A stretch of DNA of 33,552 nucleotides from Desulfuromonas sp. (GTDB taxonomy: Bacteria; Desulfobacterota; Desulfuromonadia; Desulfuromonadales; BM501): contig NZ_PKUB01000012.1 of the NCBI RefSeq assembly GCF_002868845.1, positions 3,431 to 36,982 on the forward strand, given 5' to 3'. The translations under genes and the position numbers were made by a program. Within the stretch, counting starts at the first letter, position 1; every line of letters starts with the position of its first letter. Positions 1 to 21,565 of this stretch are shown here, in pieces. Under the pieces are notes generated by a model. That model was not told the origin of the DNA. It was given only the letters and a program-made list of their open reading frames with translations, and ran no database searches.

Positions 1-1299
1 CGCCACCGTCACCCCGGAAGGCAAGGTGTCGGTCAGAATCGCTGAGAGGGTCGCCGCCGTGGCGTTGCTGTTGCCCAGGCTGATCGTCAGCGTGCTCGTG
101 CCGTTCGAGGCGATGGTCGACGGCGCGAAGGCCTTACTCACGGTCGGCGCTGCAGCGTTGACGGTCAGATCGGCCGTCGCCGCAGAGGCGTTGTTGCCAA
201 AATCGGTCTGAAGATCGCCGATGGCGATGGTGTTGGTCACCGTCCCCGGCGAGCCGCTGGTCACGTCGACGGTGATCGTGCAGCCGCCGGCAGGAATCGT
301 CGCCCCGCTGGCATAGCTCACCGTCCCGCTGTCGGCTGCAGCCGTCACCGTTCCGCTGCAGGTGCCGCCCACGTTCGGCGTGCCCGCCACCGTCACCCCG
401 GAAGGCAAGGTGTCGGTCAGAATCGCTGAGAGGGTCGCCGCCGTGGCGTTGCTGTTGCCCAGGCTGATCGTCAGCGTGCTCGTCCCGTTCGAGGCGATGG
501 TCGACGGCGCGAAGGCCTTACTCACGGTCGGCGCTGCGGCGTTGACGGTCAGATCGGCCGTGCCCGCTGCGGTGTTGTTGCCAAAATCGGTCTGAAGATC
601 GCCGATGGCGATAGTGTTGGTCACCGTCCCGGGCGTGGCGCTGGTCACGTCGACGGTGATCGTGCAGCCGCCGCCAGGAATCGTCGCGCCGCTGGCGTAG
701 CTCACCGTGCCGCTTCCGGCTGCAGCCGTCACCGTTCCGCTGCAGGTGCCGCCGACGTTGGGCGTACCCGCCACCGTCACACCGGAAGGCAGGGTGTCGG
801 TCAGGACCGCCGAAAGGGTCGCCGCCGTGGCGTTAGCGTTGCCAAGGCTGATCGTCAGCGTGCTCGTGCCGTTCGAGGCGATGGTCGACGGCGCGAAGGC
901 CTTGGCGACCGTCGGGGCTGCAGCGTTGACGGTCAGGTCTGCCGTCGCCGCAGAGGCGTTATTGCCCTGGTCGGTCTGAAGGGCGCCGATGGCGATGGTG
1001 TTTGTCACTGTCCCGGGCGTGGCGCTGGTCACATCGACGGTGATCGTGCAGCCGCCGGCAGGAATCGTCGCGCCGCTGGCGTAGCTCACCGTGCCGCTGC
1101 CGGCTGCAGCCGTCACCGTTCCGCTGCAGGTGCCGCCGACGTTGGGCGTGCCCGCCACCGTCACCCCGGAAGGCAAGGTGTCGGTCAGAATCGCTGAGAG
1201 GGTCGCCGCAGTGGCGTTGCTGTTGCCCAGGCTGATCGTCAGCGTGCTCGTGCCGTTCGAGGCGATGGTCGACGGCGCGAAGGCCTTGGCGACCGTAGG
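1..1299 (-). repeat. 384-bp tandem repeats coding for 128-aa domains
   Basis: Three full units (916-1299, 532-915, 148-531) and a partial one (1-147) share an exact period of 384 bp and are nearly identical in DNA. For example, the sequence at position 1 recurs at 385, 769 and 1153. Each unit encodes one domain beginning PTVAKAFAPSTIASNGTS. The units differ at a few places; near the domain end, for instance, NNASAATADL alternates with NNTAAGTADL. A divergent 126-aa copy lies just before them (about 1300-1677). The array runs off the window, so the copy number is unknown. Confidence 0.95.
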
Positions 1300-2994
1300 G
1301 GGAGTGACGACGTTCAGGGTCGCCACGGGACTGGCATCCGCAGTAATCCCTTGCGTCGTTGTCACGGTCGAGGTCTGGTTGTCGTGGGATCCGGCGGTGG
1401 AGCTCGTGACGTCGACGGTGACGGTGCAGGAACCGGTCGCCGGGATATTCCCCGAGGTCACGGCGAAGCTGCCGTTGCCCGCCGCGCCGTCGTGGGAGAC
1501 CGAGGCGCAGGTCCCGCCCACGTTCGGCGGGTTGGCGACCGTCATGCCCGAGGGGAAGTTGTCCGTGAAGGCCATCCCGGTGAGGCCCGTCGCCCCGAGG
1601 TTTGTGAGGGTGAAGGTGAGGGTACTCGTCTCACCCGACTGGATCGTCGACGGGGAGAAGGCCTTGGCGATGCTGAGGGTCTTCGCGACCACCACGTCGA
1701 CGAAGCCCGAACCGACGGTCACAATCCCCGACTTGCCCGAGGCCGTGTTGCGATAGGTCCCGGCCGTATTGGGGGCGGTCACGGTGTAGACGAGGTTGTG
1801 GGTTCCGCCGGCGGGGATGATCCAGGATGTGTCGGGAATCCCGATGAACTCGAGGGTGCCCGTGGCGCCGGCGCTGGGGATATAGCTCGAGTTGGCCGCC
1901 GTCACGGCGCTGCTGGCATGGAGCCCCTGGAAAGTCATTCCGCCGGGAAGGACGTCGGTGATCCGGTCGAGGATGGCGGCCTGAGCGCTGGTGTTCTGGA
2001 TGGCGACGGTGTACTGGACCGTCCCCCCGAGGGGGACCGGGCTGGCCGCGACCGACTTGGTCACGGTGAAGGGGTTGGTGCCAACGGGGTAATTGATATG
2101 GAAATCGGTGTCATGGAAGTTGTTGGTGTACTTGACGTTGGTCGCTCCGCTCGTCTGGGCGGAGAAAGGGCTGGAAGTGGTCGTGGCCCCTTCGCAGAGA
2201 TAGCGGATTAAATAACGAACCTCCACGAGGATCCCCGGATCGGGACCGGGAGGGCCGACGCACCCCGTGCCCTTTCCTGTCTGGGAATCGGGCGCTTCAA
2301 AATAGAGCTTGTCAACAGTGGTAGCTGGAATAGCTGTCGATTCGGAGCAACGAATCTCGGAGCCACTCAGGGCGAAACAGCCTGCGTTGAAGCTGGTGTT
2401 GCCGGAAGGCTGCAGGTTGAACCGGTCCCCTGCGGCGGTGTTTCCGAAGGCGTAGAGGACGTCGTAATAGAATTCCTGCCCGAGTACGGCCCCGGGGCCC
2501 AGGGTCATCCCGGCCAGAAGCCCTCCTGCGTTGGAACTGAGTTCGCTGGTCGCTGTGACCGTGGAGCCGTTGGTCACCTGCGCTCCGGAGTAATTGACGG
2601 GGCTCCCGGTCCCGTCGGAAATCCCGACGTTGATGGTCGAGCTGTTGGGCGCCTCGTCGTGGCAGGGGTAGTAGATGTGCCAGTAGACGGTCCGGGTCTG
2701 GCCCGCGTCGAGTTTCCCGACGTACTGGGTGGCGGCCTGGCCCCCGCTGAGGCCGAAACCGGCATTAAAGCCGGTCAGTTCGGCCGTCAGATTGGTCACG
2801 TTCACCCCCGTAGTGGCCTTGATTTCGAAAGCGACGTAGGCTGCACCGGGGCCGTCGATGGGACAGCCGTTGCTGTCGGAGGTGAGGTAGGGGTCGGTGA
2901 CCATCGTGACGGTGAGATCACCGGAGACGAGCGCCAGCACCTCCCCGCAAAAGACGAGAAGGCACAGAACGACCCCGCAGAGGAGTCTCCCCAT
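1..2994 (-). CDS. Giant secreted DUF11-like tandem-repeat protein, 3' end beyond window
   Basis: The frame is open for 998 codons from an ATG at 2994 to the window edge, so the C-terminus is missing. The protein starts with a signal peptide (MGRLLCGVVLCLLVFCGEVLA). About 320 residues of exported N-terminal region follow, with scattered cysteines. After that come immunoglobulin-like DUF11/DUF7933-type domains carrying signatures such as IAKAFSPSTIQSGETSTL and PSGMTVANPPNVGGTC. The last visible domains are near-identical 128-aa repeats, each with a cysteine pair (GGTCSG and AGGCTI). The start lacks a good ribosome binding site, because the GGGGAGG upstream is too far away, so coupling to the preceding gene is likely. 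It lies 38 bp after the OmpA-domain gene and is the last visible member of the operon. Families of this kind are usually surface or matrix proteins; the specific role is unknown. Confidence 0.85.
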   Translation of the reverse strand, partial: MGRLLCGVVLCLLVFCGEVLALVSGDLTVTMVTDPYLTSDSNGCPIDGPGAAYVAFEIKATTGVNVTNLTAELTGFNAGFGLSGGQAATQYVGKLDAGQTRTVYWHIYYPCHDEAPNSSTINVGISDGTGSPVNYSGAQVTNGSTVTATSELSSNAGGLLAGMTLGPGAVLGQEFYYDVLYAFGNTAAGDRFNLQPSGNTSFNAGCFALSGSEIRCSESTAIPATTVDKLYFEAPDSQTGKGTGCVGPPGPDPGILVEVRYLIRYLCEGATTTSSPFSAQTSGATNVKYTNNFHDTDFHINYPVGTNPFTVTKSVAASPVPLGGTVQYTVAIQNTSAQAAILDRITDVLPGGMTFQGLHASSAVTAANSSYIPSAGATGTLEFIGIPDTSWIIPAGGTHNLVYTVTAPNTAGTYRNTASGKSGIVTVGSGFVDVVVAKTLSIAKAFSPSTIQSGETSTLTFTLTNLGATGLTGMAFTDNFPSGMTVANPPNVGGTCASVSHDGAAGNGSFAVTSGNIPATGSCTVTVDVTSSTAGSHDNQTSTVTTTQGITADASPVATLNVVTPPTVAKAFAPSTIASNGTSTLTISLGNSNATAATLSAILTDTLPSGVTVAGTPNVGGTCSGTVTAAAGSGTVSYASGATIPAGGCTITVDVTSATPGTVTNTIAIGALQTDQGNNASAATADLTVNAAAPTVAKAFAPSTIASNGTSTLTISLGNANATAATLSAVLTDTLPSGVTVAGTPNVGGTCSGTVTAAAGSGTVSYASGATIPGGGCTITVDVTSATPGTVTNTIAIGDLQTDFGNNTAAGTADLTVNAAAPTVSKAFAPSTIASNGTSTLTISLGNSNATAATLSAILTDTLPSGVTVAGTPNVGGTCSGTVTAAADSGTVSYASGATIPAGGCTITVDVTSGSPGTVTNTIAIGDLQTDFGNNASAATADLTVNAAAPTVSKAFAPSTIASNGTSTLTISLGNSNATAATLSAILTDTLPSGVTVA

Positions 2995-3032
2995 CAAGCG
3001 CCCCGCCGGGCGATGTCCTCCCCTGTCCCTTC

Positions 3033-4202
3033 TCAATGTTTACCCTTTCCGGAACGGGCCGCCCCTTCGACCTGCAGGTCGTCCCTCTGCTCCACGAGGG
3101 TCAGGGTCTCGATCCCCTGGAAATTGAACTCGACCCGGCGGTTCATGGCGTGGCCCCAACTGTCGGGGTCGGCGATCCGGGGAGCGGTTTCGCTGAAGGC
3201 CTTCACGCTCAGGCGCCCGGCGTCGATCCCCCGGGACACCAGGTAGCTCATGACCGCCTCGGCCCGGCGCCGGGAGAGCTTGTCATTGTAACCGCGGCCG
3301 CCGCGGACGTCTGCGTGTCCGTGAATCTCGAGGGCGCTGCCCGGCGAAGCGGTCAGCGTCGAGGCGACCCGGTCGAGGACGGCGGCCGTCGCCGGGCTGA
3401 TCTCTGCACTGTCGAGGGCGAAGTGGACGCTGTCGGGGAGCCGGGCGGCCGGGGCCTGCGGGGGCTCGGGGCAGGCCGGGCACTCGGTGCACTCGGGCGG
3501 CGGTGCCGGGACGGGGATCGGCGGGGCGGCGACGGCGCACTCGGCCGCCTGGCGACGGATCTTGCGGGCCATGCGCTCGGCGGCGGAGATGTAGGGCTTG
3601 CTGTGGCGCCACCCCATCTCCTTCTCCTCGTGGCCGGACCAGACGAGCTGAACCTCGAGCTGGGCGACGAGCCCCTCGACGCAGGGGAAGCGGCCGGGGT
3701 CGGCCTTCATCCCAGCGGCCAGGGCCCACAGGTCCTCGCGCACCCTCATGCTCTGGGGGATGACCGGCGTCTCCGTCCCCATCTCGACCGGGGAGAGGCC
3801 GTCCTCGAAGCCGATCACCAGGCGCAGCGCCTCGGTCAGGGCCTCCTCGACGACGGAGGAGCGGTCGTTCTCGTTGTAGTTGGAGCGGGCGAAGTCGAGC
3901 CAGGCCTGGGCCTTGGCGAAGTGGTAGGAGTCGACCTCGACGCCGCGGCGGTTGATCTCGCCGAGGCGGTCCTGAACCGAGGCGAGCTGGCTTCGGTCGG
4001 CGGCGATGACCTCGTCGCTGATCCTCTTCTTCGGAGGAGCGAGCAGGGGCTTCGGCTCGGGCTGAGCCTCAGGCTGCGGCCCGAGAATGATCTTTTTGGA
4101 GATGATCATTGGCGAGACGGGGCGAGCCGCCTCTTCCCCGGCGGCGAAGGCCGCGGGGGCGAAGAGTCCGAAAAGTAAGAGGGATATCAGGCAGTGTCGC
4201 AT
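3033..4202 (-). CDS. OmpA-family peptidoglycan-binding protein
   Basis: This is a 389-aa exported protein. A signal peptide (residues 1-20) is followed by a helical region (about 60-215) with the stretch AKAQAWLDFARSNYNENDRS. A Pro/Cys-rich linker comes next (226-255, PPPECTECPACPEPP), and then an OmpA C-terminal domain (256-362). The OmpA domain shows GHADVRGGRGYNDKLSRRRA (295-314), which contains the Asp and Arg that contact diaminopimelate in this family. A short tail follows. No N-terminal barrel is present, so the protein probably sits in the periplasm holding partners to the cell wall. The start is supported by AAAGGTG upstream of the ATG. It lies 24 bp after the barrel gene and 38 bp before the giant repeat gene, which suggests it anchors one or both. 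Confidence 0.9.
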   Translation of the reverse strand: MRHCLISLLLFGLFAPAAFAAGEEAARPVSPMIISKKIILGPQPEAQPEPKPLLAPPKKRISDEVIAADRSQLASVQDRLGEINRRGVEVDSYHFAKAQAWLDFARSNYNENDRSSVVEEALTEALRLVIGFEDGLSPVEMGTETPVIPQSMRVREDLWALAAGMKADPGRFPCVEGLVAQLEVQLVWSGHEEKEMGWRHSKPYISAAERMARKIRRQAAECAVAAPPIPVPAPPPECTECPACPEPPQAPAARLPDSVHFALDSAEISPATAAVLDRVASTLTASPGSALEIHGHADVRGGRGYNDKLSRRRAEAVMSYLVSRGIDAGRLSVKAFSETAPRIADPDSWGHAMNRRVEFNFQGIETLTLVEQRDDLQVEGAARSGKGKH

Positions 4203-4226
4203 GGATGCACCTTTCGAAAAGGGCGG

Positions 4227-7200
4227 TCAGGGGCCGCTCTTCGTCCCCCTGTCGTCGGGGGAGATGGTCTTGTTCTGTTCCGGATCGTTCCCGTCGAGCA
4301 GATGCTCATCGAACTTGAAGCGGAAACGCATGTAGAAGCCGGGATTGGTGTAGTCCTCCCCGGAGAGGTCGCGGTCGTAGAAACCGAGGAAGTTGTAGCC
4401 CCCCGAGATCCAGAGGTTGGCGGCGAAGAGGTAGCCGATCTCGCCGCCGATCCCATAGTTGAGGGCGTCGTCTTCGCGGGCCAGGGCGCTGGCGAGAAAC
4501 CCGGCGTCCCAGCGCTCGGTAATGTCGTAGATCAGGCGACCGGCGAGAAGCTGGGCCGAGGTCGAATCGTCGTCCGAGCCGAACTTTTCGTCGGTCCACT
4601 TCAGGGCGCAGCGCCCGCTCACCGTGGCCGCCCGGGAGGGCTGCACGTTGAGGTGGGTCGAGAAGATGTGGACGGAGCGCTCCTCCCTCTGCTCGCCGGG
4701 GAACTCCTCCTCCTCGCGCTTGAACTCGTAGCGCGACAGGACGTTCCAGCGGTTGTTGTCGACCGGGCGATAGGCGAAACCGATCTGGTAGCGCTCCTGC
4801 TGCCGCTCCTCGGAGGTGCCGTCCCCCTCGAGGAGCGAGTAGACGTTGCGAGAGAGGAGGGTCCAGTCCCGGCTCATCTTGAGGGCGAGCCCGGCGCTGC
4901 CGAGGAAGCTGTCGCTGCTCTCGCCGTTGTGGACCTCGGCCCTCAGGCTCCCCTTCCAGAGGGGGTTGCCCGAGTAGACGAGGGCTCCGGTGACGGCGGT
5001 GGAACTGTTGTCCGCCGAACCGGTCAGGGCGTGGACCCGCTCGATGCCGACATTGGCGATCACCCCCTCGGCGAGGGTCCAGGCGTTGCGCAGGCCGACG
5101 GCCGCCTCCGAATCGCGCCCGCTGACGGAGTCGCGAATACGATACTCGCTGAAGACATTCCCCCGACGCATGTAGGGCGATTCGACCCCGACCAGGGTTA
5201 CGTTGCGCTCCTGCACGTCGTTGAGGGAGAACTCGCCGGCGAGGGTGGAGACGAAGCGGTGCTGGGCGTAGATGCGTCCGCCGTTGCTGAGCTGGTAGTC
5301 GCCGCCGACGCCGACGGAGCGACGGTCGCCGGCGTCGATTGCCTGCTCGGCCTCGACGAAGACGCCGGCCCGGGGGGCGAAGGGGACCCTCGCGGCGAGC
5401 TTGGCCCGCACCGAGGTGGTGCTGAAGGGGGTCGCCCCGGTGGTGTCCGCCTCGGCGGGGGCGGTCGTCTCCTCGGCGAGGCGCAGCCCGAGCTCGCCCC
5501 GCAGCGAGCCGTTGAAGGCGTGCTCGAGGTTGACCAGGAGCCCCTTGCGCTCGCCGTCGTTCTCCAGGTCGCGGGAGAGGAGGGCCTCGGCCCCCAGGCT
5601 CGTCTTGCGGGTCAGCCGGAGACGGGCGTTGGCACCGGCCTCCTCCCGCCCGGCGAGCAGGAGCGAGGAGGGGTTGTCGAAGTTTTCGTCGGTGCGGTGG
5701 GCGTAGACGGCGGCGGAGAAGGTGTCGCCGGTGTGCTGCAGCTCGACCCGCTTGCCCTCGCCGGTGCCGAGAACATCCCCGCTCGTCTCGGCCCACTCGC
5801 CGACAAGGAAGGTCTTGGGGGCCACCTTGACGGTCATGTTGGCGCCGCCCATGGTGTAGCGTTCGACGGGGCTGTCGTCGTGGACAAGGACGCCCCCGAC
5901 CTCGACCCGGTCGTGGAGGCGGGCCTGGGCGTCGCCCCCGGCGATCCAATAGTGGCCCGACTCCCCCTCGGTCTCGTAGGTCACCCGGATGAAGTTGGGG
6001 TTGAGGTCCTGGTCGTAGATCGGGACGGGGGCCCTGAGGACGATGCGGCCGGAAAGGACGTCGAGCTCGTAGTCGGTGAAGCGGGCCAGCGAGTCGACGG
6101 CCACGATGCGGGACTTCTGGTTGCGGTCGCGGGTGACGATCTCTACCCGCTCGCTGTTGACGACCAGATCGCTCTCCTTCAGGAAGTAGGGCCCGGAGAC
6201 CCCCTTTGCTGCGATCTCCTCGACGACCTGGCGGGTGCCGTCCTCGCTGACGAAGGCGTTGAGGTTCACCCTCTCGGTCTCGTGGTGGAACTTCGCCCCG
6301 TTGAAGCTGCGGTTGTACAGGGAGAGCTTGCGAGCCTGGGCCGGCGCCAGGGTCGAGAAGTCGCCGAGGAGCAGGTACGACTTCTTGCGGTCGACCCGGA
6401 CGTAGAGTCGTCCCGTCGACTGGGCGTCGTAACCGCGTACCGAGGCGTCGCCGTAGACCGGGTAGAAGGCGTCGGGCTCGATGTCGCGGAAGAGGCGCTC
6501 CCGGGTTTCCTTCTCCGAGTCGTAGGCGACGGTGAGGAGGGTATCTCCCCGGACCTTCCCCTTGAGGAAGAAGGCGGCCCGCGCCCCGGCCGAGCCTTCG
6601 CCGCCCGAGATGTTGTCGAGCTCCCTCTCGAAGCCGTCGGCCGGGCTCGCCCCGACAAGGGCGGCGGAGCCGAGGCGGCTCAGGTTGACCACCCCCTCGA
6701 CCAGGCCGGTGGCGATGATCGGGCGCAGGTCGGGGAGGAAGTAGAGGATGCAGGCCCCCTCGAGAATCCCCGAGGAGACGACGACCAGGGCCTCGCCCGG
6801 CTCCTGGGGGGGACGCAGGCCGAAGGTGGCGCTCCCCCCCTCGATGAAGACCTGAATGCCCGGGGTCTCGGGGTCGAGGTCGACCACGTCCCAGCGCCCG
6901 AGGCTGGCCTCGAGGGTCAGCTGGGTGCGCACCGTCACCGGGACCCCCTCGGGGTCCTTCAACTCGACCTTGAGGGGCACGACGCTGTGGCCGTCGGCGA
7001 CCAGGCCGGCGTCGGGGGGGGTGACGGCGATCTCGCCGAGGCCATCGGGGGCGACGAGGCGGATCGTCTCGCTCTGGCGGTCGTTGCCGAAGGGATCGAC
7101 GTAGGTCAGCGCGAGGGTGTTCTCCCCCGGCTCGAGGTTGACCCCGATGTACTCCCAGGCGAGAAGCCCGCGGCTCGGGTCGATGATGCGCTTGCCGACA

Positions 7201-9653
7201 CGCCTTTCGCTCACGGTCTCGCCGTTGAGGGAGAGGCGGAAGCGTCCCCCTTCGGGGCCCTTGATCCGGACGTGGACCTGGGCAAAAGGGAGGGTGTCGC
7301 CGTCGCGCAGGTCGAGGAAGGCCGGGGTGGTGTCCTCGATCCCGTCAAGAAGGTCCTCGAGGGAGATCAGGGCCGGCACGAGAAGGGGCGGTTGGGAGGT
7401 GTCGGGCACATCCCCGGGGTCGATCATCGGCTCGAAGGTCGGAACCTTCGGCGTGTCCTCGACGTACCCGCTCGCCGAGGCGGACAGGGACGTCTCTTCG
7501 GTCCCGTCGGAGGGGTCGGCGTCGAGAATTTCGCGCACCCGGCGCTCCACGTCGGCGACGAAAACATCCCCCCGCTCGCGGCGCAGCACGACCTGCTCGA
7601 GGATCTCGCCGGTGCAGGACCCCTCGGCGAAATCAGCCCGGTGGAGTTCGCCGTTCTTGATGTCGATGAAGCGGCTGCCGGCGTCGCCGGCGAAGCGGTT
7701 GGAGAGGGTGATCATTTCCGAGCCGGCAGGCAACGTCGTCTCGTCGATGCGCAGGACGTGGGTGCTCGGGGAGAGCCCGTAGAAGCTGAACTTGCCCTCC
7801 GCATCGGTAACTACGAAGGAGCCGTCCTGCATGAAGAGGCGCACTCCCGGGATGCCCGGCTCTTCGTCGCCCTGGCGGCGATCCCAGTCGCAGTTGACGT
7901 AGACCTTGCCGACCACGTAGCCGCGGGAGGTGAAGACCCCAGGGACAACGTCGACCCGGGCCTGGGCCCGGTTGGAGACGAGGCTGCCGTCGACCACGGC
8001 GAAGGCGGTGTTGACCCCGTCCCCCTGCAGGGCGCCGGGCCCGATGGCGGCCCGGTAGGTCAGGCTGGCGCGGGAGCCGGCCGGGATCTCGCCGACGGCG
8101 AAGGTGAGCTGGCGCCCGCCCCCGCCCTTGGGATCGGCGATCCGGACCCCGTCGATGCGGGCCGAGCCGTTGCTGAAAACGAAGCCGTAGGGAAGAAAGT
8201 CCTCCACGGTCACGTTGGGAAAGTCCTGCCCCGAGGCGTTGACGACCGTCAGGGTGTACTGGACGACATCGGCGATCTCCGCCGTCGAGCGGTTCACCCT
8301 CTTCTCGAGGGACAGCACGGAGAAGGGGCGGTCAAGGGGCAGGTCGATGAAGACCGCCCCGGTCGACAGGTTCAGCTCGAACTCACCGCCGTAGGAGGCA
8401 GCCGGGTCGATGCGCCGCTCCGGCGGAAGATCGGCGGCGGGGACCGTGGAAGGGAAGAGGTATTCCCCGGGGGGGACGACTTCGATCCGGTAGGTGCTCG
8501 GGCAGAGGACCGGGAAATCGTAGCGGCCGTCCTCGCCCGTCACCTGCTCGGAGGGGAGGACCGCGGAGGCGGCGTAGTCGAGGACCTTGGCCAGTCCGCC
8601 GGGAATCCCGGCCGAGCAGGCGACGCCCGCCTCGGTCGGCTGGCCGTTGCCGCCACCGGTCACGTCGATGAGACGAACGATGGCTCCGGCGACCGGAGCG
8701 TCGGTGCGCGAATCGAAGACCACCCCGCCGGGATCGATGAAGATGACCGTCTCCGCCACGCTCTCGCCGCAGCCGGCGATGCTCGCCAGCAGGGTGTCCC
8801 CCTTGACGGTTTCGAGGATGCCGTTGCCGGGATCGGCGGGGAAGAGGTCGGCGTCCCGGGTCGGCACCGGGACGATCACGCGGAAGATTCCGGTGTCCTC
8901 GGCCGTCTCCTCGGCGAGAAGCTCCTCCAGGTCGCCGGTCAGGGCCGAGACGATGACAATGATCCGGGTCTCGGCCTGCGAGATCTCGGCGTTGCAGGCC
9001 GGGGCGTCGGCCTGGACGTGGAGGTCCTCGCCGAGCACGGTTCGGGCGATTTTTTCCCGGTATTCCGGGTCGTAGTAGTCGATGGTCGCCGGCGGCAGCA
9101 CCACCGCCGGCAGGGGTACCTCGACCGTGCCGCTGGCGGGGACGCCGCAGCCGTCGATGGAGACCATCAGCAGGTCGCCGCCGAGGATGTCGAGGACGCC
9201 GTCCAGGGGTTCGGCGGCGGCGAGGGCGCCGTCGCGGGTCGGAAAGGGAGAAGCGATGCGGAAGATCCCCGAATCGGGGGCGGTCTCCACCAGAGAGACC
9301 GCCTCCTCGTCCCCGGTCAGGGCCGAGACGAGAGTCGCGCCCAGGCTCTCGGCGAGCTCGGCGCTTTCGTTGCAGGCCGGGGAACGCCCCTGAACGAAGA
9401 GGTCGAAGCCGACCGGGGTCGTGGGGATCTCTTCGGTGTAGGGGGGATCGTAAAAGTCGACAGAAGCCGAAAGGGTAGCAACAGTCGAGACGATATTGCT
9501 CGAAACGGTCGTCTCGGGGGCGCCAGGCCCCAGCAGAAAGGTGGCGAAGGCCTGGTTGTCGACGCTCAGGGCGAACGCCGACGGCGCACCGGCCCCGAGG
9601 AGGGCCAGGGCGGCCATGCAGAAAAATGCCAGTTTTCGAAAGCTTCGGGTCAT
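4227..9653 (-). CDS. Adhesin-like protein with DUF11/SdrD-type domains and C-terminal beta-barrel
   Basis: This is a 1808-aa protein starting at ATG 9653 after GAAGG; an upstream in-frame start at 9725 would place 24 residues before the signal peptide. The order of parts is as follows. A signal peptide ends near AFA (27). An N-terminal module has NQAFA and SNIVSTV. Two copies of a roughly 120-aa domain follow (about 66-190 and 192-308, each with FYDP or YYDP and TG(E/D)). Next come a carboxypeptidase-regulatory-like domain (about 308-440), a DUF11 domain (about 444-570) and an SdrD-B-like domain (about 578-650, PGIPGVRLFMQDG). A further Ig-like region lies at about 870-970. From about 1030 to 1790 alternating amphipathic strands form a predicted outer-membrane barrel, ending GFYMRFRFKF, with an 18-residue polar tail. 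The function is unknown; the architecture suggests a surface-exposed or scaffold outer-membrane protein. Confidence 0.88.
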   Translation of the reverse strand: MTRSFRKLAFFCMAALALLGAGAPSAFALSVDNQAFATFLLGPGAPETTVSSNIVSTVATLSASVDFYDPPYTEEIPTTPVGFDLFVQGRSPACNESAELAESLGATLVSALTGDEEAVSLVETAPDSGIFRIASPFPTRDGALAAAEPLDGVLDILGGDLLMVSIDGCGVPASGTVEVPLPAVVLPPATIDYYDPEYREKIARTVLGEDLHVQADAPACNAEISQAETRIIVIVSALTGDLEELLAEETAEDTGIFRVIVPVPTRDADLFPADPGNGILETVKGDTLLASIAGCGESVAETVIFIDPGGVVFDSRTDAPVAGAIVRLIDVTGGGNGQPTEAGVACSAGIPGGLAKVLDYAASAVLPSEQVTGEDGRYDFPVLCPSTYRIEVVPPGEYLFPSTVPAADLPPERRIDPAASYGGEFELNLSTGAVFIDLPLDRPFSVLSLEKRVNRSTAEIADVVQYTLTVVNASGQDFPNVTVEDFLPYGFVFSNGSARIDGVRIADPKGGGGRQLTFAVGEIPAGSRASLTYRAAIGPGALQGDGVNTAFAVVDGSLVSNRAQARVDVVPGVFTSRGYVVGKVYVNCDWDRRQGDEEPGIPGVRLFMQDGSFVVTDAEGKFSFYGLSPSTHVLRIDETTLPAGSEMITLSNRFAGDAGSRFIDIKNGELHRADFAEGSCTGEILEQVVLRRERGDVFVADVERRVREILDADPSDGTEETSLSASASGYVEDTPKVPTFEPMIDPGDVPDTSQPPLLVPALISLEDLLDGIEDTTPAFLDLRDGDTLPFAQVHVRIKGPEGGRFRLSLNGETVSERRVGKRIIDPSRGLLAWEYIGVNLEPGENTLALTYVDPFGNDRQSETIRLVAPDGLGEIAVTPPDAGLVADGHSVVPLKVELKDPEGVPVTVRTQLTLEASLGRWDVVDLDPETPGIQVFIEGGSATFGLRPPQEPGEALVVVSSGILEGACILYFLPDLRPIIATGLVEGVVNLSRLGSAALVGASPADGFERELDNISGGEGSAGARAAFFLKGKVRGDTLLTVAYDSEKETRERLFRDIEPDAFYPVYGDASVRGYDAQSTGRLYVRVDRKKSYLLLGDFSTLAPAQARKLSLYNRSFNGAKFHHETERVNLNAFVSEDGTRQVVEEIAAKGVSGPYFLKESDLVVNSERVEIVTRDRNQKSRIVAVDSLARFTDYELDVLSGRIVLRAPVPIYDQDLNPNFIRVTYETEGESGHYWIAGGDAQARLHDRVEVGGVLVHDDSPVERYTMGGANMTVKVAPKTFLVGEWAETSGDVLGTGEGKRVELQHTGDTFSAAVYAHRTDENFDNPSSLLLAGREEAGANARLRLTRKTSLGAEALLSRDLENDGERKGLLVNLEHAFNGSLRGELGLRLAEETTAPAEADTTGATPFSTTSVRAKLAARVPFAPRAGVFVEAEQAIDAGDRRSVGVGGDYQLSNGGRIYAQHRFVSTLAGEFSLNDVQERNVTLVGVESPYMRRGNVFSEYRIRDSVSGRDSEAAVGLRNAWTLAEGVIANVGIERVHALTGSADNSSTAVTGALVYSGNPLWKGSLRAEVHNGESSDSFLGSAGLALKMSRDWTLLSRNVYSLLEGDGTSEERQQERYQIGFAYRPVDNNRWNVLSRYEFKREEEEFPGEQREERSVHIFSTHLNVQPSRAATVSGRCALKWTDEKFGSDDDSTSAQLLAGRLIYDITERWDAGFLASALAREDDALNYGIGGEIGYLFAANLWISGGYNFLGFYDRDLSGEDYTNPGFYMRFRFKFDEHLLDGNDPEQNKTISPDDRGTKSGP

Positions 9654-9684
9654 GGAGCCTTCAACGGGTAGAGAGTGGCAAGGC

Positions 9685-9717
9685 GGGGGGCACGGAACGG
9701 GTCGCTCCGTGCCCCCC
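9685..9717 (-). promoter_or_regulatory. Perfect 12-bp intergenic hairpin
   Basis: The arms GGGGGGCACGGA (9685-9696) and TCCGTGCCCCCC (9706-9717) are exactly complementary around a 9-nt loop. The hairpin lies in the 76-bp gap between the 938-aa gene and the barrel gene. No T-run follows on the minus strand, so it is not a standard terminator. It may protect the upstream mRNA or set expression ratios within the operon. Confidence 0.7.
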
Positions 9718-9729
9718 GGGGGCAATACC

Positions 9730-12546
9730 CTACTTGTTGATCATGATCCCGAAGGTGACCGTCGCCGACTTGTTCGACCCGAGGGTCCCGAGGGTCCCGA
9801 TGGTCGCGGTGATCGACCCCGTGTCGCCGCAGTCCGGGGCGGTGATCGACCCGACGGTGGTCGCAGCGTCGGCATCGACAGCGCCGGTGCCGCAGGCGCC
9901 GCCGGCGCTATCGCGGCTGCCGTCGTCGAAGGTGGAATGGGCCGGGGTCGAGTCGGAGAGGACGAGGGTGGTCACGTCGGCCGTTCCGTCGTTGGTGGCG
10001 ACGATCTGGTAGCGCACGCACTCGCCGGGGTTGCCCTGGAGCTGGCCGGTGGTAAAGGCGGTGTCGGCGGTGCCGTCACAGTTTGTGTCGAGGGCCTGGG
10101 TCTTTACCAGGCGGACCTGGCCGGCGATGACCTGGGTCGTATCGTCGACCGAGTCGGCCGGGGCGGTCCCCGTCAGGGTGCCATTGGCGGTCGTGGCGGT
10201 GAGGGTCGTCTTGTTGATGTCACCGATCCCCGCGCTGGCCGACGCGGTGACCTTGACGAAGAAGCGGGCCGACTCGCCTGCGGAGAGGCCGTTGTCGAGA
10301 GGGTCCACACCGGCGATCGCGTGAATACCCGCCGCGGGGACGATGGGGTCGGCGGCGTCGAGGGCGTTGTCGCCGTTCAGGTCGTAGTAAACGACGCTGG
10401 TCCACCCGGAGAGGGAGTCGCTCAGGCCGAGGGTGACGGTGCTGCCGGAGTTGTCCCCCTCGGTGACGTTGCCGTTGTTCTTGAGGATGTGGGTGTAGAC
10501 CACCGAGCCGCCGGGGTAGACCTGGCCGCTGTTCTCGGGGGAGACGGAGAGGTTGCGAACCGTGTTGACGCTCACCCGGTCGTGCTTGGTGTCGACCGCC
10601 CCGGTCGTCGGGGAGAGGGCGCGGAAGTAGATCTCCACGTTGCCCGGCGAAGCGTTCGCAGGAACGTCGAGGGTGGCGCAGACCGGGGTGCTGGCGTCGG
10701 CATTGACCACGCCGGTGTTGGTGACCGGAGCGCCCGAGGCCGGGCATTCGCCGCCGTGGAAGGAGACGGTCCAGCCGGTCGGCAGGTCGTTCACCACGGG
10801 GTCGGCCCAGGTGTTGTCGTCGTCGGCGAAGAGGTTGTAGGTGTCGGCCACGGCGCTGGTGTTCTTGACGTAGAGGGTGAAGCTGGCGGTGGCGCCGGGG
10901 TTGACCGTCTCGGTCGTCTGGGGATCGGCCTCGCCGGTGCTATAGCCGTAACCACACAGGTCGGGGTCAACCTCGTCCCCATTGCAACTGTCATGATCTC
11001 TGGCGTAGTTGTTGGTCAGGTCAACGGTGTTGCCGGTGATCGCGCCGAGAGTGTTCACCACCGTGTTGCTCTTTGTGGGGTCGGTCGCCGAGGTGGCGGT
11101 CAGGGTCACGGAGAAGCCGCTCCCGCCGTTATCGCCGGAGGCGTTGGCCGGGAGGGTCGCCTTGATCACGACCTTGTATTCATTTTTATCATCAACGGCA
11201 TCATCGGTCGCAACCAAGACAGGGCCGGTGTCAGGATCGGCCGTGCCGGCGGAGCTGGTCAGGGGGGTGGCGCCGTCGGACTTGTAGAGCTGGAAGACGG
11301 TTCCCGCCGGGAAGGTGCTGCTGCCGAGGGTGATGTCGAAGGTGTCGGTGCCGTTGCCGGTGTTCCAGATGTAGTTGCTGAAGGTGACCGTCGCGCCCTG
11401 GAGGGCGGTGGCGACCGTCACCGGCTCGTCGACCCCGTCGGCGTGGTCGGTGCTCGAGCCGTTGGCGACGACCCCGGCCGCCGCCAGGACAGTGTAGGCC
11501 GCCGTGTTGGTGTTGGTGGGGCCGACGTCATCCCCGCCGCCGGCGGGCTTGTCGTTGTATGCGAATTTGGCGGTGTTCGTGGTGGTCGCCGCCCCGGGGG
11601 GCAGACCGCTGTTGATGGTCACGTTGAACTTGATGAAGCCGCTGGCGCCGGGGCCGACGCTGGAGATAACCGCCGTCACCGTATCGGCCGTGGTCACGTC
11701 CCAGTCGTAGGCGAGCCCGGAGGAATCGCCGGCAGCGGCATCGGTCACCGTCGCGCCGCCGGACCACTGGCCGCTGTCGGCCACGTAGGTCATCCCCGCG
11801 GTCGCCCCGGAGCCGATGACGTCGGTGAGGATCACGTCGGAGGCTGCGCTGTTGCCGTTGTTGGTGTAGGTCAGGGTCACGGTGATCGGCCCGGCGCTCG
11901 GAGAGGGACCGCTGCTCAGGGAGAGGGCCTTGGTGACGAGGAGGACCGCGTTGCCCGTCACGGTGACGGTGTCGGTGTTGGTCTCGGTCTCCGAGGTGGT
12001 GTGGTTGCTCTCGCCCGTGACGGTGATCGTCTCACTCTCGGCGGCCGCGGCGTCGGCAGGAACCGTCGCCGCGACGACGAACTTGTAGCTCGCCCCGGGG
12101 GCGAGGGAGGGAGTGATGGCGACTTCTGTGCCGCTGTCGGGGACGCCGTTGCCGTCGGCGTCGGCGAAGATTTTCAGGCTGGTGAAGGCAATCGTCCCGG
12201 TATCGGCATCGACGGCGGAAAGGTCGAAGGTGTCGGCCCCGTTCCCCGTGTTGGTCAGGGTGTGGGTGAAGTAGACGGTGCTGCCGGGGGAGATGGTCTT
12301 GCTCCCGTTCTGGGTGAGGGTGAAGCTGGCGACCTGCTTCACGATGGTCGATACGACGTTCGATGTGGCGGTGCGGCCGACATTGGAATCGTCGGTGTAG
12401 GTCGCCGAGGCCTGGTTGCCGATGGAGGTTCCGGCCGGCGGCGCCGCCAGGGCGGACGACAGACCGAAGCCGACAAGGGCCAGGGCCAGCAGCATGTGAA
12501 TGAAATAACGGAGCGGGGCTCTTCGCTTGCGGGACTGCTCTTTCAT
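9730..12546 (-). CDS. Secreted DUF11-type protein with calcium-loop motifs
   Basis: This is a 938-aa exported protein. The ATG at 12546 has an excellent AGGAGG site upstream. A long signal peptide (basic start, then about 16-35) is followed by TSIGNQASATYTDDSN and SNVVSTIV, the same N-terminal module seen in the barrel protein next door. The remainder is a chain of DUF11/CARDB-like beta-sandwich domains with motifs such as TLTNTGNGADTFDLS and VLSDSTPAHSTFDDG. Three calcium-loop patterns of the form DxDxDGxxD are visible: D129-D131-N133-D137, D722-N724-D726-D730 and D820-N822-D824-D828. The protein ends at GIMINK with no membrane anchor, barrel or sorting signal. It probably forms part of a secreted or surface-attached structure, but the exact role is unknown. 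Confidence 0.87.
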   Translation of the reverse strand: MKEQSRKRRAPLRYFIHMLLALALVGFGLSSALAAPPAGTSIGNQASATYTDDSNVGRTATSNVVSTIVKQVASFTLTQNGSKTISPGSTVYFTHTLTNTGNGADTFDLSAVDADTGTIAFTSLKIFADADGNGVPDSGTEVAITPSLAPGASYKFVVAATVPADAAAAESETITVTGESNHTTSETETNTDTVTVTGNAVLLVTKALSLSSGPSPSAGPITVTLTYTNNGNSAASDVILTDVIGSGATAGMTYVADSGQWSGGATVTDAAAGDSSGLAYDWDVTTADTVTAVISSVGPGASGFIKFNVTINSGLPPGAATTTNTAKFAYNDKPAGGGDDVGPTNTNTAAYTVLAAAGVVANGSSTDHADGVDEPVTVATALQGATVTFSNYIWNTGNGTDTFDITLGSSTFPAGTVFQLYKSDGATPLTSSAGTADPDTGPVLVATDDAVDDKNEYKVVIKATLPANASGDNGGSGFSVTLTATSATDPTKSNTVVNTLGAITGNTVDLTNNYARDHDSCNGDEVDPDLCGYGYSTGEADPQTTETVNPGATASFTLYVKNTSAVADTYNLFADDDNTWADPVVNDLPTGWTVSFHGGECPASGAPVTNTGVVNADASTPVCATLDVPANASPGNVEIYFRALSPTTGAVDTKHDRVSVNTVRNLSVSPENSGQVYPGGSVVYTHILKNNGNVTEGDNSGSTVTLGLSDSLSGWTSVVYYDLNGDNALDAADPIVPAAGIHAIAGVDPLDNGLSAGESARFFVKVTASASAGIGDINKTTLTATTANGTLTGTAPADSVDDTTQVIAGQVRLVKTQALDTNCDGTADTAFTTGQLQGNPGECVRYQIVATNDGTADVTTLVLSDSTPAHSTFDDGSRDSAGGACGTGAVDADAATTVGSITAPDCGDTGSITATIGTLGTLGSNKSATVTFGIMINK

Positions 12547-12631
12547 TGCCGAATCCTCCTAGAATGGTCTATTGACTGCACAAATAGAATCTTGAAAAAC
12601 TTTCGAATTCAAATAATCAAAGGGCGAAGAC

Positions 12632-13141
12632 TCACCGTCCCTCCGCGATGCGGGCGCGGGCCTTGACGACGGTCTCCTGGCCGGGGCCGAGGCTGCCGAT
12701 CTCCCAGCGCAGTGCGCGGTAGTCGCGATAGGGGACCGCCCTCTGCTCCTCCCGGCCGCTGGCAAGGCGCACCAGGCGCCGCAGGGGGACGGGGCCGAAA
12801 CTCTCGCCGTCGGTCGAGGCGCTGACCTGGGCAGGAATTGCGCTGCCCGGCAGGTATTCCATCCCTTCGGGAACGGGCAGGGTGCCGAGAATGTTGCCGA
12901 GGCTCCTTTGGGAGACGTTGCGGTAGCGCGCCGTGTACTCGATGACGTCACCCGGGTGCCCCTCGTCGGCCGGGAGGAACTCCTCCTCGCCTCCGGGGCC
13001 GGCGACGACGCGAACCGAGGACATCTCGATCACCAGGGGGCCCTCTCCGGCGGCGATCGACGGCACGACAAATGCGCAGAGCAGCATGGCCATGACGACG
13101 GCAATGAACCGTCCACTTCTCTTAATGGCTGTGATGTTCAC
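12632..13141 (-). CDS. Small exported DUF11-like protein
   Basis: This 169-aa protein is read from a GTG at 13141, chosen because AGGAGG sits 8 nt upstream; an earlier in-frame GTG at 13177 has no such site. A signal peptide (RSGRFIAVVMAMLLCAFVV, then SIAA) leads into a single beta-rich domain with features of DUF11 repeats: PGDVIEYTARYRNVS, GTLPVPEGMEYLPGS and LRWEIGSLGPGQE. It is the first gene of the surface operon, 85 bp ahead of the 938-aa protein. A one-domain member at the head of the unit could be a subunit or assembly partner of the larger repeat proteins; this is inferred from context only. Confidence 0.82.
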   Translation of the reverse strand: MNITAIKRSGRFIAVVMAMLLCAFVVPSIAAGEGPLVIEMSSVRVVAGPGGEEEFLPADEGHPGDVIEYTARYRNVSQRSLGNILGTLPVPEGMEYLPGSAIPAQVSASTDGESFGPVPLRRLVRLASGREEQRAVPYRDYRALRWEIGSLGPGQETVVKARARIAEGR

Positions 13142-13272: not shown

Positions 13273-13301
13273 ATTATTCTAATATCCATATTTAGTTGCA
13301 A
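13273..13301 (-). promoter_or_regulatory. Candidate sigma-70 promoter of the surface operon
   Basis: On the minus strand, TTGCAA (13296-13301) and AATAAT (13273-13278) are spaced by 17 nt within a strikingly AT-rich island in otherwise GC-rich DNA. The predicted transcript would have a leader of about 125 nt before the GTG at 13141. A second, weaker candidate, TTGACG, lies further upstream near 13345. Confidence 0.4.
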
Positions 13302-13710
13302 AAAAACCTTTCCCCTTCCGGGTTTATTGCGGGAAAACTATATTTCGTCAAACCAACCCCCCCCTGGAAACCGCCCTTCCTCTACCCTTCCAACAGCATT
13401 TGAGGCAATCCCCGCTGTCGGCCCAAGCAGATTGGGAGGCAGCAACCGCGGAGGCGCAGGAAGGGGGGGAGGAGGCTAATAAACCCTTCCCAATCGAGCC
13501 TCTCTCCATGCCCCCGAGACGTTGCACAGGGCGAACAGGGAGACCTCGCCCCGTGTGGGCTGACAACCCGCTGCCGAAGGACTGCACCTAGAAGATCGTC
13601 AAAAAAGGTGTTCCCCTGAGGACAAGCCGGCCCATTAGGAAGACTTGGAAAAAACGGGCCAAGAGCGGGTTGTTTTGGCCAACCCCAGCGAGCAACCGCT
13701 ACGCCTGCCC
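13302..13710. other. Intergenic region with no recognised gene
   Basis: This stretch separates the terminator of the phosphodiesterase gene from the promoter island of the surface operon. The short open frames on both strands lack credible ribosome binding sites and protein-like composition. A weak hairpin (GGGTTG at 13667 with CAACCC at 13680) is visible. I recognise no tRNA, riboswitch or other known RNA. Confidence 0.5.
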
Positions 13711-13750
13711 AAAAACGAAAGCCCCGCAGGGGAACCTGCGGGGCTTTCGG
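13711..13750 (-). terminator. Rho-independent terminator
   Basis: A 13-bp perfect stem (13718-13730 with 13735-13747, loop GGAA) is followed on the minus strand by CGTTTTT. It lies about 30 bp beyond the stop of the phosphodiesterase gene. Confidence 0.9.
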
Positions 13751-19176: not shown

Positions 19177-20199
19177 ATGACCGAGCGCATCATCACCGCC
19201 GGCACGGCCGGCGACGACGACAACTTCGAGACCAGCCTCCGGCCCCGCCTCCTCCCCGAATATATCGGCCAGAGCAAGGCCAAGGAGAACCTTCAGGTCT
19301 TCATCGACGCGGCCCGCGGCCGCGGGGAGGCCCTCGACCACGTCCTCTTTTACGGGCCGCCGGGGCTGGGAAAAACCACCCTGGCCAATATCGTCGCCAA
19401 CGAGATGGGCGTAAACATCAAGAGTACCTCCGGACCGGTCATCGAGAAGACCGGCGATTTGGCCGCCATTCTCACCAACCTGGAGGAAGGCGATGTCCTC
19501 TTTATCGACGAAATCCACCGCCTCTCCGCGGTCGTGGAAGAGATCCTCTACCCCGCCATGGAAGACTACCAGCTCGACATCATCATCGGGCAGGGACCCT
19601 CGGCGCGCACCATCAAGCTGGACATCCCCCGCTTCACCCTGGTGGGTGCCACCACCCGGGCCGGCCTCCTGTCCTCCCCCCTGCGGGACCGCTTCGGGGT
19701 CATCTCCCGGCTGGAGTTCTACACCCCCGAGGAGTTGACCACCATCGTCCGGCGCAGCGCCGATATCCTGGGCATCACCACCGAAGAGGAGGGGGCTGCG
19801 GAAATCGCTCGCCGCTCCCGGGGCACGCCGCGCATCGCCAACCGCCTGTTGCGCCGGGTGCGCGACTTCGCCGAGGTCAAGGGAGACGGCGTCATCACCC
19901 GGAAGGTGGCCGACCTCTCCCTCAGCCGCCTGGAAGTGGACCGCTGCGGTTTCGACCACATGGACCGCCGCATCCTGCTGGCCATCATCGACAAGTTTTC
20001 CGGAGGCCCCGTCGGCCTGGAGACCCTGGCCGCGACCGTCGGAGAAGAGAAGGACACCATCGAGGACGTCATCGAGCCCTTCCTCCTTCAAGAGGGTTAT
20101 CTCAACCGCACCCCCCGGGGAAGAGTGGCGACCCCCCTGGCCTACTCTCATTTTCAGCGACTCCCCCAGACGGAGAGTGCCGGGGACCTTTTCTCCTGA
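19177..20199 (+). CDS. ruvB: Holliday junction ATPase RuvB
   Basis: This 340-aa AAA+ motor drives branch migration with RuvA. It has Walker A GPPGLGKT (60-67), Walker [10 protein letters not shown] (109-117), sensor 1 LVGATTRAG, the arginine-finger region LRDRFG, and the winged-helix end with [15 protein letters not shown]. The length is typical. The gene is followed 40 bp later by a membrane GGDEF protein without an intervening terminator, so the signalling gene may share the repair transcript. Confidence 0.98.
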
Positions 20200-20239
20200 C
20201 CTGACATCCTTCGCCCCCCCCGCATGGAGGTATACGGGA

Positions 20240-21565
20240 ATGGAGATAGTGCCTCGCAAAGTCACCCATAAAATCGTCCTCTCCCACCTCCTGCTCCTGC
20301 TCTTCAGTCTGATCGCCATCGTCTTCGCCTTGACCGGCCTCCACAGCCAGACCCGCCGCTCCCAGGCACTCGTTGCCGTCGAGGTGCAGGCCCTCAACCT
20401 GTCCCGCCAGCTGCGAGGCAACCTCCTCGCCCAGGATGGCCTGGAAAAACAGTTTTTCATCCTCGAGAACCCCGAGATCATCTACCTTCTGGACCGACGC
20501 CAGGAGGTCTTCCTGGAACTCTGGCAGGCATTTTCCGCCCTCCCCCCGGCCCAACCCCTGCCCGACCTGGCGACCCTGGCCAGCCGCCATCGCGAGGAGT
20601 GGGACACCTTGCGCGGCCACCTCGGGAATAGCCCCGCGACGGCCGAAGGTTTTTCCCGAAACACCCTGTCGCCGTTGCGGGACAGCCTGATCCAGGCCCT
20701 TGAGGCGTTCCGCGGGCGCCAAGAAGAGACCATCCACGACCAGATCATTGAACTCTCCACGGCCGGTTCCCGGGCCTTTCGCTTGACCCTGCTGCTGGTC
20801 CTGCTCGGAATCGCCATCGGCACCCCCGTGGTTCTCTCGATCCTGCTCCACATCCACCGCTCGATCAGCCGACTGTCCCGGGCCACCGAAACCATCGGCT
20901 CGGGGGATTTCGACTTCAATCCCGCACAATTCTCCCAGGACGAGTTCGGCCTTCTCGCGGGCCGCTTCCACGAAATGGGGATGCGTCTCAAGGAGTCGGA
21001 GGAGCGCTCCCTCGACGCCAACCCGCTCACCCGCCTGCCGGGCAACCTCGCCATCGAGAGGGAGTTGGAAAAACGTATCTCGACCGGCCAGCCCTTCGCC
21101 CATGCCCTGGTCGACCTGGACCACTTCAAAGTCTTCAACGACCGTTACGGCTACCAGTCCGGCAGCGAGATCATCGCCGAGGTGGGCGAAATCGTCCGGG
21201 ACCTCGTAAGCAGGTTGGGAAACCCCAACGACCTGGTCGGGCACATCGGGGGGGACGACTATGTCATCCTCTCCACCCCGGAACGGATGGAGGGCATGGC
21301 GGCCGCCATCATCGAGGAATTCGACCGACGGGTGCCCGGGTACTACTCTGATGAAGACCGGACCCGGGGATTTTTCCTCGCCACCGACCGTTTCGGGGTG
21401 GAGCGCCAGTTCTCTCTCATGAGCATGTCCATCGCCATCGTCTGCTCCGAGAATTTCCTCCGTCCCTCCGCACCGGGAATCGCCGCCGAGTGTGCTAGGA
21501 TGAAGGACAACCTGAAAAACCTGCATGGAAGCAACTTCCTCATGGATCGCCGCAAGGGACGTTAA
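20240..21565 (+). CDS. Membrane HAMP-GGDEF protein with atypical GGDDY signature
   Basis: This 441-aa protein starts at ATG 20240, preceded by GGAGG. Two membrane segments (about 11-34 and 181-204) flank a helical sensor region of about 145 residues. A HAMP segment (about 205-255) and a GGDEF domain (about 258-435) follow. Conserved GGDEF residues include NPLTRLPGN, LVDLDHFKVFNDRYG and HIGGDD. The signature is GGDDY (337-341), not GG(D/E)EF, and the usual inhibitory RxxD is replaced by NPND, so there is no product-inhibition site. It could still make cyclic di-GMP or another dinucleotide, or act as a binding-only sensor. It sits 2 bp upstream of a lipoprotein gene, a likely functional partner. 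Confidence 0.88.
   Translation: MEIVPRKVTHKIVLSHLLLLLFSLIAIVFALTGLHSQTRRSQALVAVEVQALNLSRQLRGNLLAQDGLEKQFFILENPEIIYLLDRRQEVFLELWQAFSALPPAQPLPDLATLASRHREEWDTLRGHLGNSPATAEGFSRNTLSPLRDSLIQALEAFRGRQEETIHDQIIELSTAGSRAFRLTLLLVLLGIAIGTPVVLSILLHIHRSISRLSRATETIGSGDFDFNPAQFSQDEFGLLAGRFHEMGMRLKESEERSLDANPLTRLPGNLAIERELEKRISTGQPFAHALVDLDHFKVFNDRYGYQSGSEIIAEVGEIVRDLVSRLGNPNDLVGHIGGDDYVILSTPERMEGMAAAIIEEFDRRVPGYYSDEDRTRGFFLATDRFGVERQFSLMSMSIAIVCSENFLRPSAPGIAAECARMKDNLKNLHGSNFLMDRRKGR

Follow-up and report, generated by a model that had tools for sequence, protein, structure and literature searches.

Five consecutive genes on the minus strand of a Desulfuromonas sp. genome (3.7 Mb, 99.8% complete) make up a real, widespread and so far unnamed conserved unit, a conclusion that is well supported by the retention of the same neighborhood in distant relatives. 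The genes lie in a stretch of 33,552 nucleotides (bases 3431-36982 of contig C12), hereafter the window, and each product has a signal-peptide-like N-terminus (Sec). At roughly even odds (a probability of about 0.5), the products form an outer-membrane platform, tied to peptidoglycan, by which DUF11 subunits are exported or assembled. DUF11 proteins occur widely among the exported proteins of diderm bacteria, and we know of no route by which they are exported; their constant association with a giant barrel and its partner genes offers one that is testable, for instance in Psychrobacter, which can be cultivated. The genes, numbered in the direction of transcription with starts assigned from the sequence, are the following.

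12632-13141, minus strand: gene 1, small exported single-domain DUF11-like protein of 169 amino acids (aa), a conserved family recognized by sequence, family alignment and co-occurrence with the barrel; GTG start at 13141, preceded by AGGAGG
9730-12546, minus strand: gene 2, exported 938-aa NEW3/DUF11 protein, from domain search and homologues; start at 12546
4227-9653, minus strand: gene 3, 1808-aa outer-membrane protein, from domain search and two AlphaFold models; ATG start at 9653
3033-4202, minus strand: gene 4, exported 389-aa protein with an N-terminal helical-looking domain and a C-terminal OmpA peptidoglycan-binding domain, from domain search; start at 4202
1-2994, minus strand: gene 5, giant exported DUF11/DUF7933 protein of at least about 2,000 aa with 384-bp repeats, from sequence and domains, extending beyond the window as far as contig base 306; ATG start at 2994

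The sequence-only reading of this DNA had described five exported proteins on one strand with gaps of 24-85 base pairs (bp), and this is confirmed (85, 76, 24 and 38 bp, in order from gene 1). The domain calls hold as well: DUF11-type domains in genes 2, 3 and 5, where PF01345/TIGR01451 score above the cut-off, and weakly in gene 1 (TIGR01451, E-value 0.002, below the cut-off); SdrD_B in gene 3; OmpA in gene 4; and DUF7933 in gene 5.

Conservation of the five-gene set

When 84,980 species genomes were scanned, at least 79 distinct loci emerged; among the matches listed are Opitutaceae, many Psychrobacter, Oxalobacteraceae, Alphaproteobacteria, Desulfobulbaceae and others. In Desulfuromonadales, Opitutaceae, Psychrobacter and alpha- and betaproteobacteria, as well as on a plasmid from Acinetobacter, the small protein, the NEW3/DUF11 protein and the barrel are kept together, often joined by the giant protein and the helical/OmpA one. 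The Opitutaceae share the order found in the window (small protein, a protein of about 930 aa, a barrel of about 2000 aa, helical protein, giant protein) and hold full-length gene 2 homologues with 39-44% identity, while a mobilizable plasmid of Acinetobacter haemolyticus carries small, NEW3, DUF11, barrel, OmpA and DUF11 proteins. Homologues of P0003 were found in 28 of 58 relatives, about 14 of which carry, in whole or in part, the series giant DUF11 protein, an optional DUF11 protein, gene 1 homologue, DUF11 protein of 380-440 aa and barrel of about 1980 aa. Synteny across phyla excludes a chance grouping of the five genes. The alternative considered at the outset, homologues occurring independently with no shared neighborhood, did not materialize.

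A gene 1 homologue lies upstream on the same strand of 74 of 97 barrel genes, exactly two genes away in 66 of them (some of the loci overlap). The gene is missed by the gene calls in several loci, hence a six-frame search was used, which located it at six more loci and two plasmid loci; many of the remaining barrel loci begin at a contig end. Of 15 genomes with a full (type-A) barrel, 14 have a gene 1 homologue, compared to none of 19 genomes lacking such a barrel, and in 13 of these 14 genomes the homologue adjoins the barrel, the fourteenth being on a contig with an unresolved continuation. In a wider sample of the phylum, where 8 of 118 genomes encode a barrel, stand-alone gene 1 homologues were found in the four genomes that encode the type-A barrel in full, vs 0 of 20 lacking it. 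Domain fusions suggest that the parts work together: at locus L048 the DUF11 part and the barrel are joined in one chain of 3,296 aa, and at L050 and L052 a gene-1-like domain resides inside the giant protein.

The barrel tree joins the window to a Desulfuromonas metagenome-assembled genome (support 100/99), and this pair falls within a 17-row clade that includes five rows from Verrucomicrobiota and nine from Pseudomonadota (100/100), whereas most Desulfuromonadales barrels belong to another clade. Transfer of the barrel locus between phyla is the simplest reading of this tree, not a proof. In a side branch (L048-L052, from genomes G019, G031, G035, G028 and G012), barrels are paired with or fused to DUF11 proteins of about 3,000 aa, and several of them carry an OmpA domain of their own; this branch may represent a second type of the system. 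At L109, in Psychrobacter sp. WY6, the barrel and adjoining subunit genes are split over several frames, as a decayed copy or through sequencing errors.

The barrel protein and its proposed anchor

From the N-terminus, the gene 3 protein consists of repeats, CarboxypepD/SdrD_B and DUF11 domains, two Ig-like domains and a C-terminal giant barrel. The relevant parts of genes 3 and 4 are listed below.

4308-6596, minus strand: predicted beta-barrel of about 38 strands in gene 3 (6 strands, an insert, 32 strands), from AlphaFold and DSSP
6003-6239, minus strand: plug-like domain inserted after barrel strand 6, from the model and conservation
3168-3422, minus strand: OmpA domain of gene 4 (PF00691, E-value 6e-18)

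The barrel was modeled by AlphaFold with 43 homologues (predicted local distance difference test, pLDDT, 82; predicted template modeling score, pTM, 0.74), and DSSP assigns to this model 6 strands, a small inserted beta-domain (model residues 158-236) and 32 further strands; an earlier model built on 19 sequences gives the same strand count. The plug-like insert is among the best-conserved parts and bears the motif NSExVxI...DYxIDYxxGxLxF. Neither Pfam nor NCBIfam has a model that matches the barrel part of the window's gene 3. Taken together, the members of the barrel family match generic barrel and Ig models alone, weakly or in a minority of cases, and no significant sequence match was found among solved structures in the PDB, SprA included. 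In a structural comparison, the best partial matches were FimD (Z 16.2; 335 residues, root-mean-square deviation (rmsd) 7.7 A) and SlpA (Z 14.8; 271 residues, rmsd 3.9 A), with porins scoring just behind. Foldseek ranks SlpA first for the core model, with LptD and SprA near the top, and SprA first for a longer model; MtrB and TonB-dependent receptors appear among the fold matches too. Gene 3 is thus predicted to be more than a fused adhesin, its modeled shape most closely resembling the export platforms FimD and SprA and S-layer barrels such as SlpA.

The helical-looking domain of gene 4 bears the motif AKAQAWLDFA..NDRS, and its OmpA domain retains the Asp/Arg peptidoglycan site (HADVRG...LSRRRA). 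At about 24 loci, which belong to the sister clade and the side branch, the barrel protein itself contains an OmpA domain with an intact peptidoglycan-site motif, in the sister clade directly N-terminal to the Ig domains and the barrel. Such an internal domain is absent from all of the roughly 60 barrels in the clade of the window; this clade usually has a separate gene 4 homologue, in which the N-terminal domain is conserved and the OmpA domain is present in some members only. Since in these relatives the OmpA domain precedes the barrel in one chain, the stretch before the barrel is placed in the periplasm, which suggests that the putative adhesin half of gene 3 faces the periplasm and not the outside. 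The sequence-only reading had interpreted gene 3 as a fusion of adhesin and barrel: the C-terminal barrel is supported by both models, while the description as an adhesin falls short of a chain with about 38 predicted strands, a plug-like insert and an N-terminal half that is suggested to be periplasmic.

Subunit genes, stem-loop and locus boundaries

Gene 2 carries the motif IGNQASATYTD near its N-terminus. Gene 5 reaches contig base 306, so the window edge is not the end of the gene; its 3' end encodes SdrD-like and DUF11 domains, with the stop at base 306 followed by a 13-bp hairpin. The repeat array spans three single-N assembly gaps in contig C12, and the true length of the product is uncertain because repeats may be collapsed in the assembly. 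Beyond the hairpin, the start of the contig (L002, 1-230) holds a degenerate copy of the gene 5 C-terminal DUF11 sequence, which may be a second copy or may have been left behind by recombination. Subunits end flush with a DUF11 strand in 21 of 28 cases, vs 126 of 760 other genes. A shared C-terminal export signal is not supported: relative to protein length, a first count seemed strongly in its favor (41 of 57 vs 13.9), but the fairer test within proteins gave p 0.07.

The junction between genes 2 and 3 contains the following element.

9684-9718, minus strand: 16-bp stem-loop with one G-U pair and no T-run (-44 kcal/mol, z -5.6)

A terminator is ruled out by the lack of a T-run after the stem, and a genomic repeat element by the single occurrence of the sequence in the genome. 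Counting stems of at least 10 bp, the same junction has one in 10 of 13 other loci of the clade and in 38 of 39 Psychrobacter loci, compared to about 9% of shuffled sequences; equivalent stem-loops are found at L056, L057, L058, L088, L097, L105, L106 and the Psychrobacter loci. At the gene 1/2 junction, stems occur in 0 of 10 clade loci and 6 of 37 Psychrobacter loci, and in the sister clade a junction stem is rare (5 of 27). The position is conserved and the sequences diverge from one lineage to another. Covariation is seen in Psychrobacter: in a set of 14 stems, 98.8% of cells are paired, a figure biased upward as the stems were picked for length, and 8 of 14 pairs have changed on both sides, with G-U intermediates present. 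By analogy with pilus operons, where a stem-loop lies between papA and papH, we infer that this element may set the ratio of subunit to barrel.

Two features lie upstream of gene 1.

13273-13302, minus strand: promoter-like site in an AT-rich stretch, from a consensus match only
13716-13749, minus strand: strong terminator of the upstream GDPD gene, separating that gene from the operon

Farther along the window, a GGDEF (diguanylate cyclase) gene is located on the opposite strand about 7 kb off the operon (20177-21565) and a sigma-54 response regulator gene toward the far end (32014-33381), with the housekeeping genes glpX, yebC, ruvB and lpxC between the operon side and the latter.

The proposed platform, its rivals and known systems

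The platform we favor, a self-contained system for assembly at the surface, would operate as follows. Genes 1, 2 and 5 would provide small, medium and giant DUF11 subunits exported by Sec; the N-terminal Ig/DUF11/SdrD part of gene 3 would take them up in the periplasm; and the barrel would move them to the surface and keep them attached. The OmpA domain of gene 4 would tie the platform to peptidoglycan, a task that in relatives would fall to the domain within the barrel protein, and the stem-loop between genes 2 and 3 would yield more subunit than barrel from one transcript. Gene order and its conservation, the co-occurrence, the fusions and the stem-loop with its covariation are observed and the barrel fold is predicted, whereas the direction of transport, the assembly of subunits and the effect of the stem-loop are what we infer. 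The probable role of the gene set is to build or anchor a layer or fibre of protein outside the cell; the matrix or fibre that the sequence-only reading had envisaged as the product is not demonstrated by anything in the analysis. A broader proposal, that of an undescribed secretion and assembly pathway spread horizontally over several phyla, in which the largest single-chain barrel so far (about 38 strands) exports and holds DUF11 proteins, a stem-loop sets their ratio and the barrel is a distant SprA relative outside Bacteroidota, is tentative and on balance doubtful.

Several observations weigh against export or assembly by the barrel. The count of about 38 strands comes from DSSP on a model with a pTM of 0.74, in which barrel closure could not be inspected. 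The template modeling scores (TM-scores) of the fold matches are low, about 0.2-0.25, and, as barrels resemble one another, such matches are no proof of an export role. Compared with the internal DUF11 domains of the subunits, the last one shows no significant excess of similarity to gene 1 (11 of 28 vs 7.0 expected, p 0.07), the barrels of relatives reach 10.8-12.4 bits with the SprA model TIGR04189 (cut-off 200), which is below significance, and no experiments on any member of the barrel system were found in the literature searched.

The main rival to export and assembly is that the barrel anchors and does not export: together with the OmpA protein, it would hold an S-layer-like DUF11 coat, as SlpA does in Deinococcus, the subunits leaving the cell by, for example, type II secretion. 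The place of SlpA among the best structural matches, with its low rmsd (3.9 over 271 residues) and its top Foldseek rank for the core model, and the conservation of the OmpA anchor speak for such a coat; however, FimD scores at least equally, the operons hold no other recognizable export component and the small subunit always accompanies the barrel, so that we regard this rival as unlikely. An assignment of the products to a single surface adhesin complex, in which the DUF11/SdrD half of gene 3 lies outside and binds the other DUF11 proteins around a pore with no export role, appears improbable. DUF11 and SdrD_B domains are indeed frequent in surface adhesins, and this was the earlier view of the locus, but the OmpA domain of the relatives, with its peptidoglycan site intact, sits between the DUF11/SdrD domains and the barrel and thus points to a periplasmic location of this stretch. 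It is very improbable that the plugged large pore imports macromolecules or houses an MtrB-like redox conduit with the DUF11 proteins as surface receptors: although MtrB and TonB-dependent receptors are among the fold matches and the insert is plug-like, none of the five window genes has a match to a cytochrome, TonB or SusD family, no further gene lies in the part of the neighborhood that is conserved, and the hosts extend far beyond metal reducers.

No named system of this composition was found in the databases or in the literature searched (DUF11/OmpA/barrel operons, Psychrobacter cat1, DUF11 fibrils or secretion; subscription literature was outside the scope), in agreement with the sequence-only reading, which knew of none. 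The DUF11/SdrD surface proteins (TIGR01451, PF01345, PF17210) share the domain content of genes 2, 3 and 5, but they are loose domain families, in contrast to the constant set of genes described here, which includes a barrel of an unclassified family. Autotransporters and intimins differ in having a 12-stranded translocator, vs the approximately 38 predicted strands of this barrel. SlpA, the S-layer deinoxanthin-binding complex of Deinococcus, is likewise a very large barrel holding a surface layer and gives a low-rmsd partial match, which however spans about half of the window's barrel; to our knowledge, SlpA has no DUF11 subunits or OmpA partner. The chaperone-usher systems (FimD/PapC) are similar in the top structural Z-score, in the small beta-sandwich subunits, in the insert, which in ushers also follows barrel strand 6, and in a stem-loop between subunit and barrel genes that recalls the papA-papH one. 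Ushers, however, have 24 strands, and membership in their family is not supported: PF00577 has no match in the genome at an E-value of 1, with a positive E. coli control. No chaperone family was matched by the five window genes, though a divergent one could escape detection.

The remaining comparison is with SprA/Sov of the type IX translocon of Bacteroidota, a giant single-chain outer-membrane barrel of 36 strands that has been described as the largest outer-membrane barrel (PMC7463736); if the count of about 38 is right, the barrel reported here is larger. In two relatives' genomes, the sole match of the SprA profile lies inside the barrel, in the inserted region (model positions about 615-686; E-values 0.02 and 0.08), and the insert region of a side-branch member matches SprA alone in NCBIfam (E-value 0.005), while in the genome of the window the sole TIGR04189 match (8.4 bits) is away from the barrel. 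These weak matches to positions 615-686 suggest, rather than show, a distant kinship. The operon partners differ, being DUF11 and OmpA proteins and not PorV, Plug or a motor, and TIGR03517 (Gld/Por motor and ring) gave no match, the control genomes being equally without one. The link to SprA, if true, bears on the origin of the type IX translocon.

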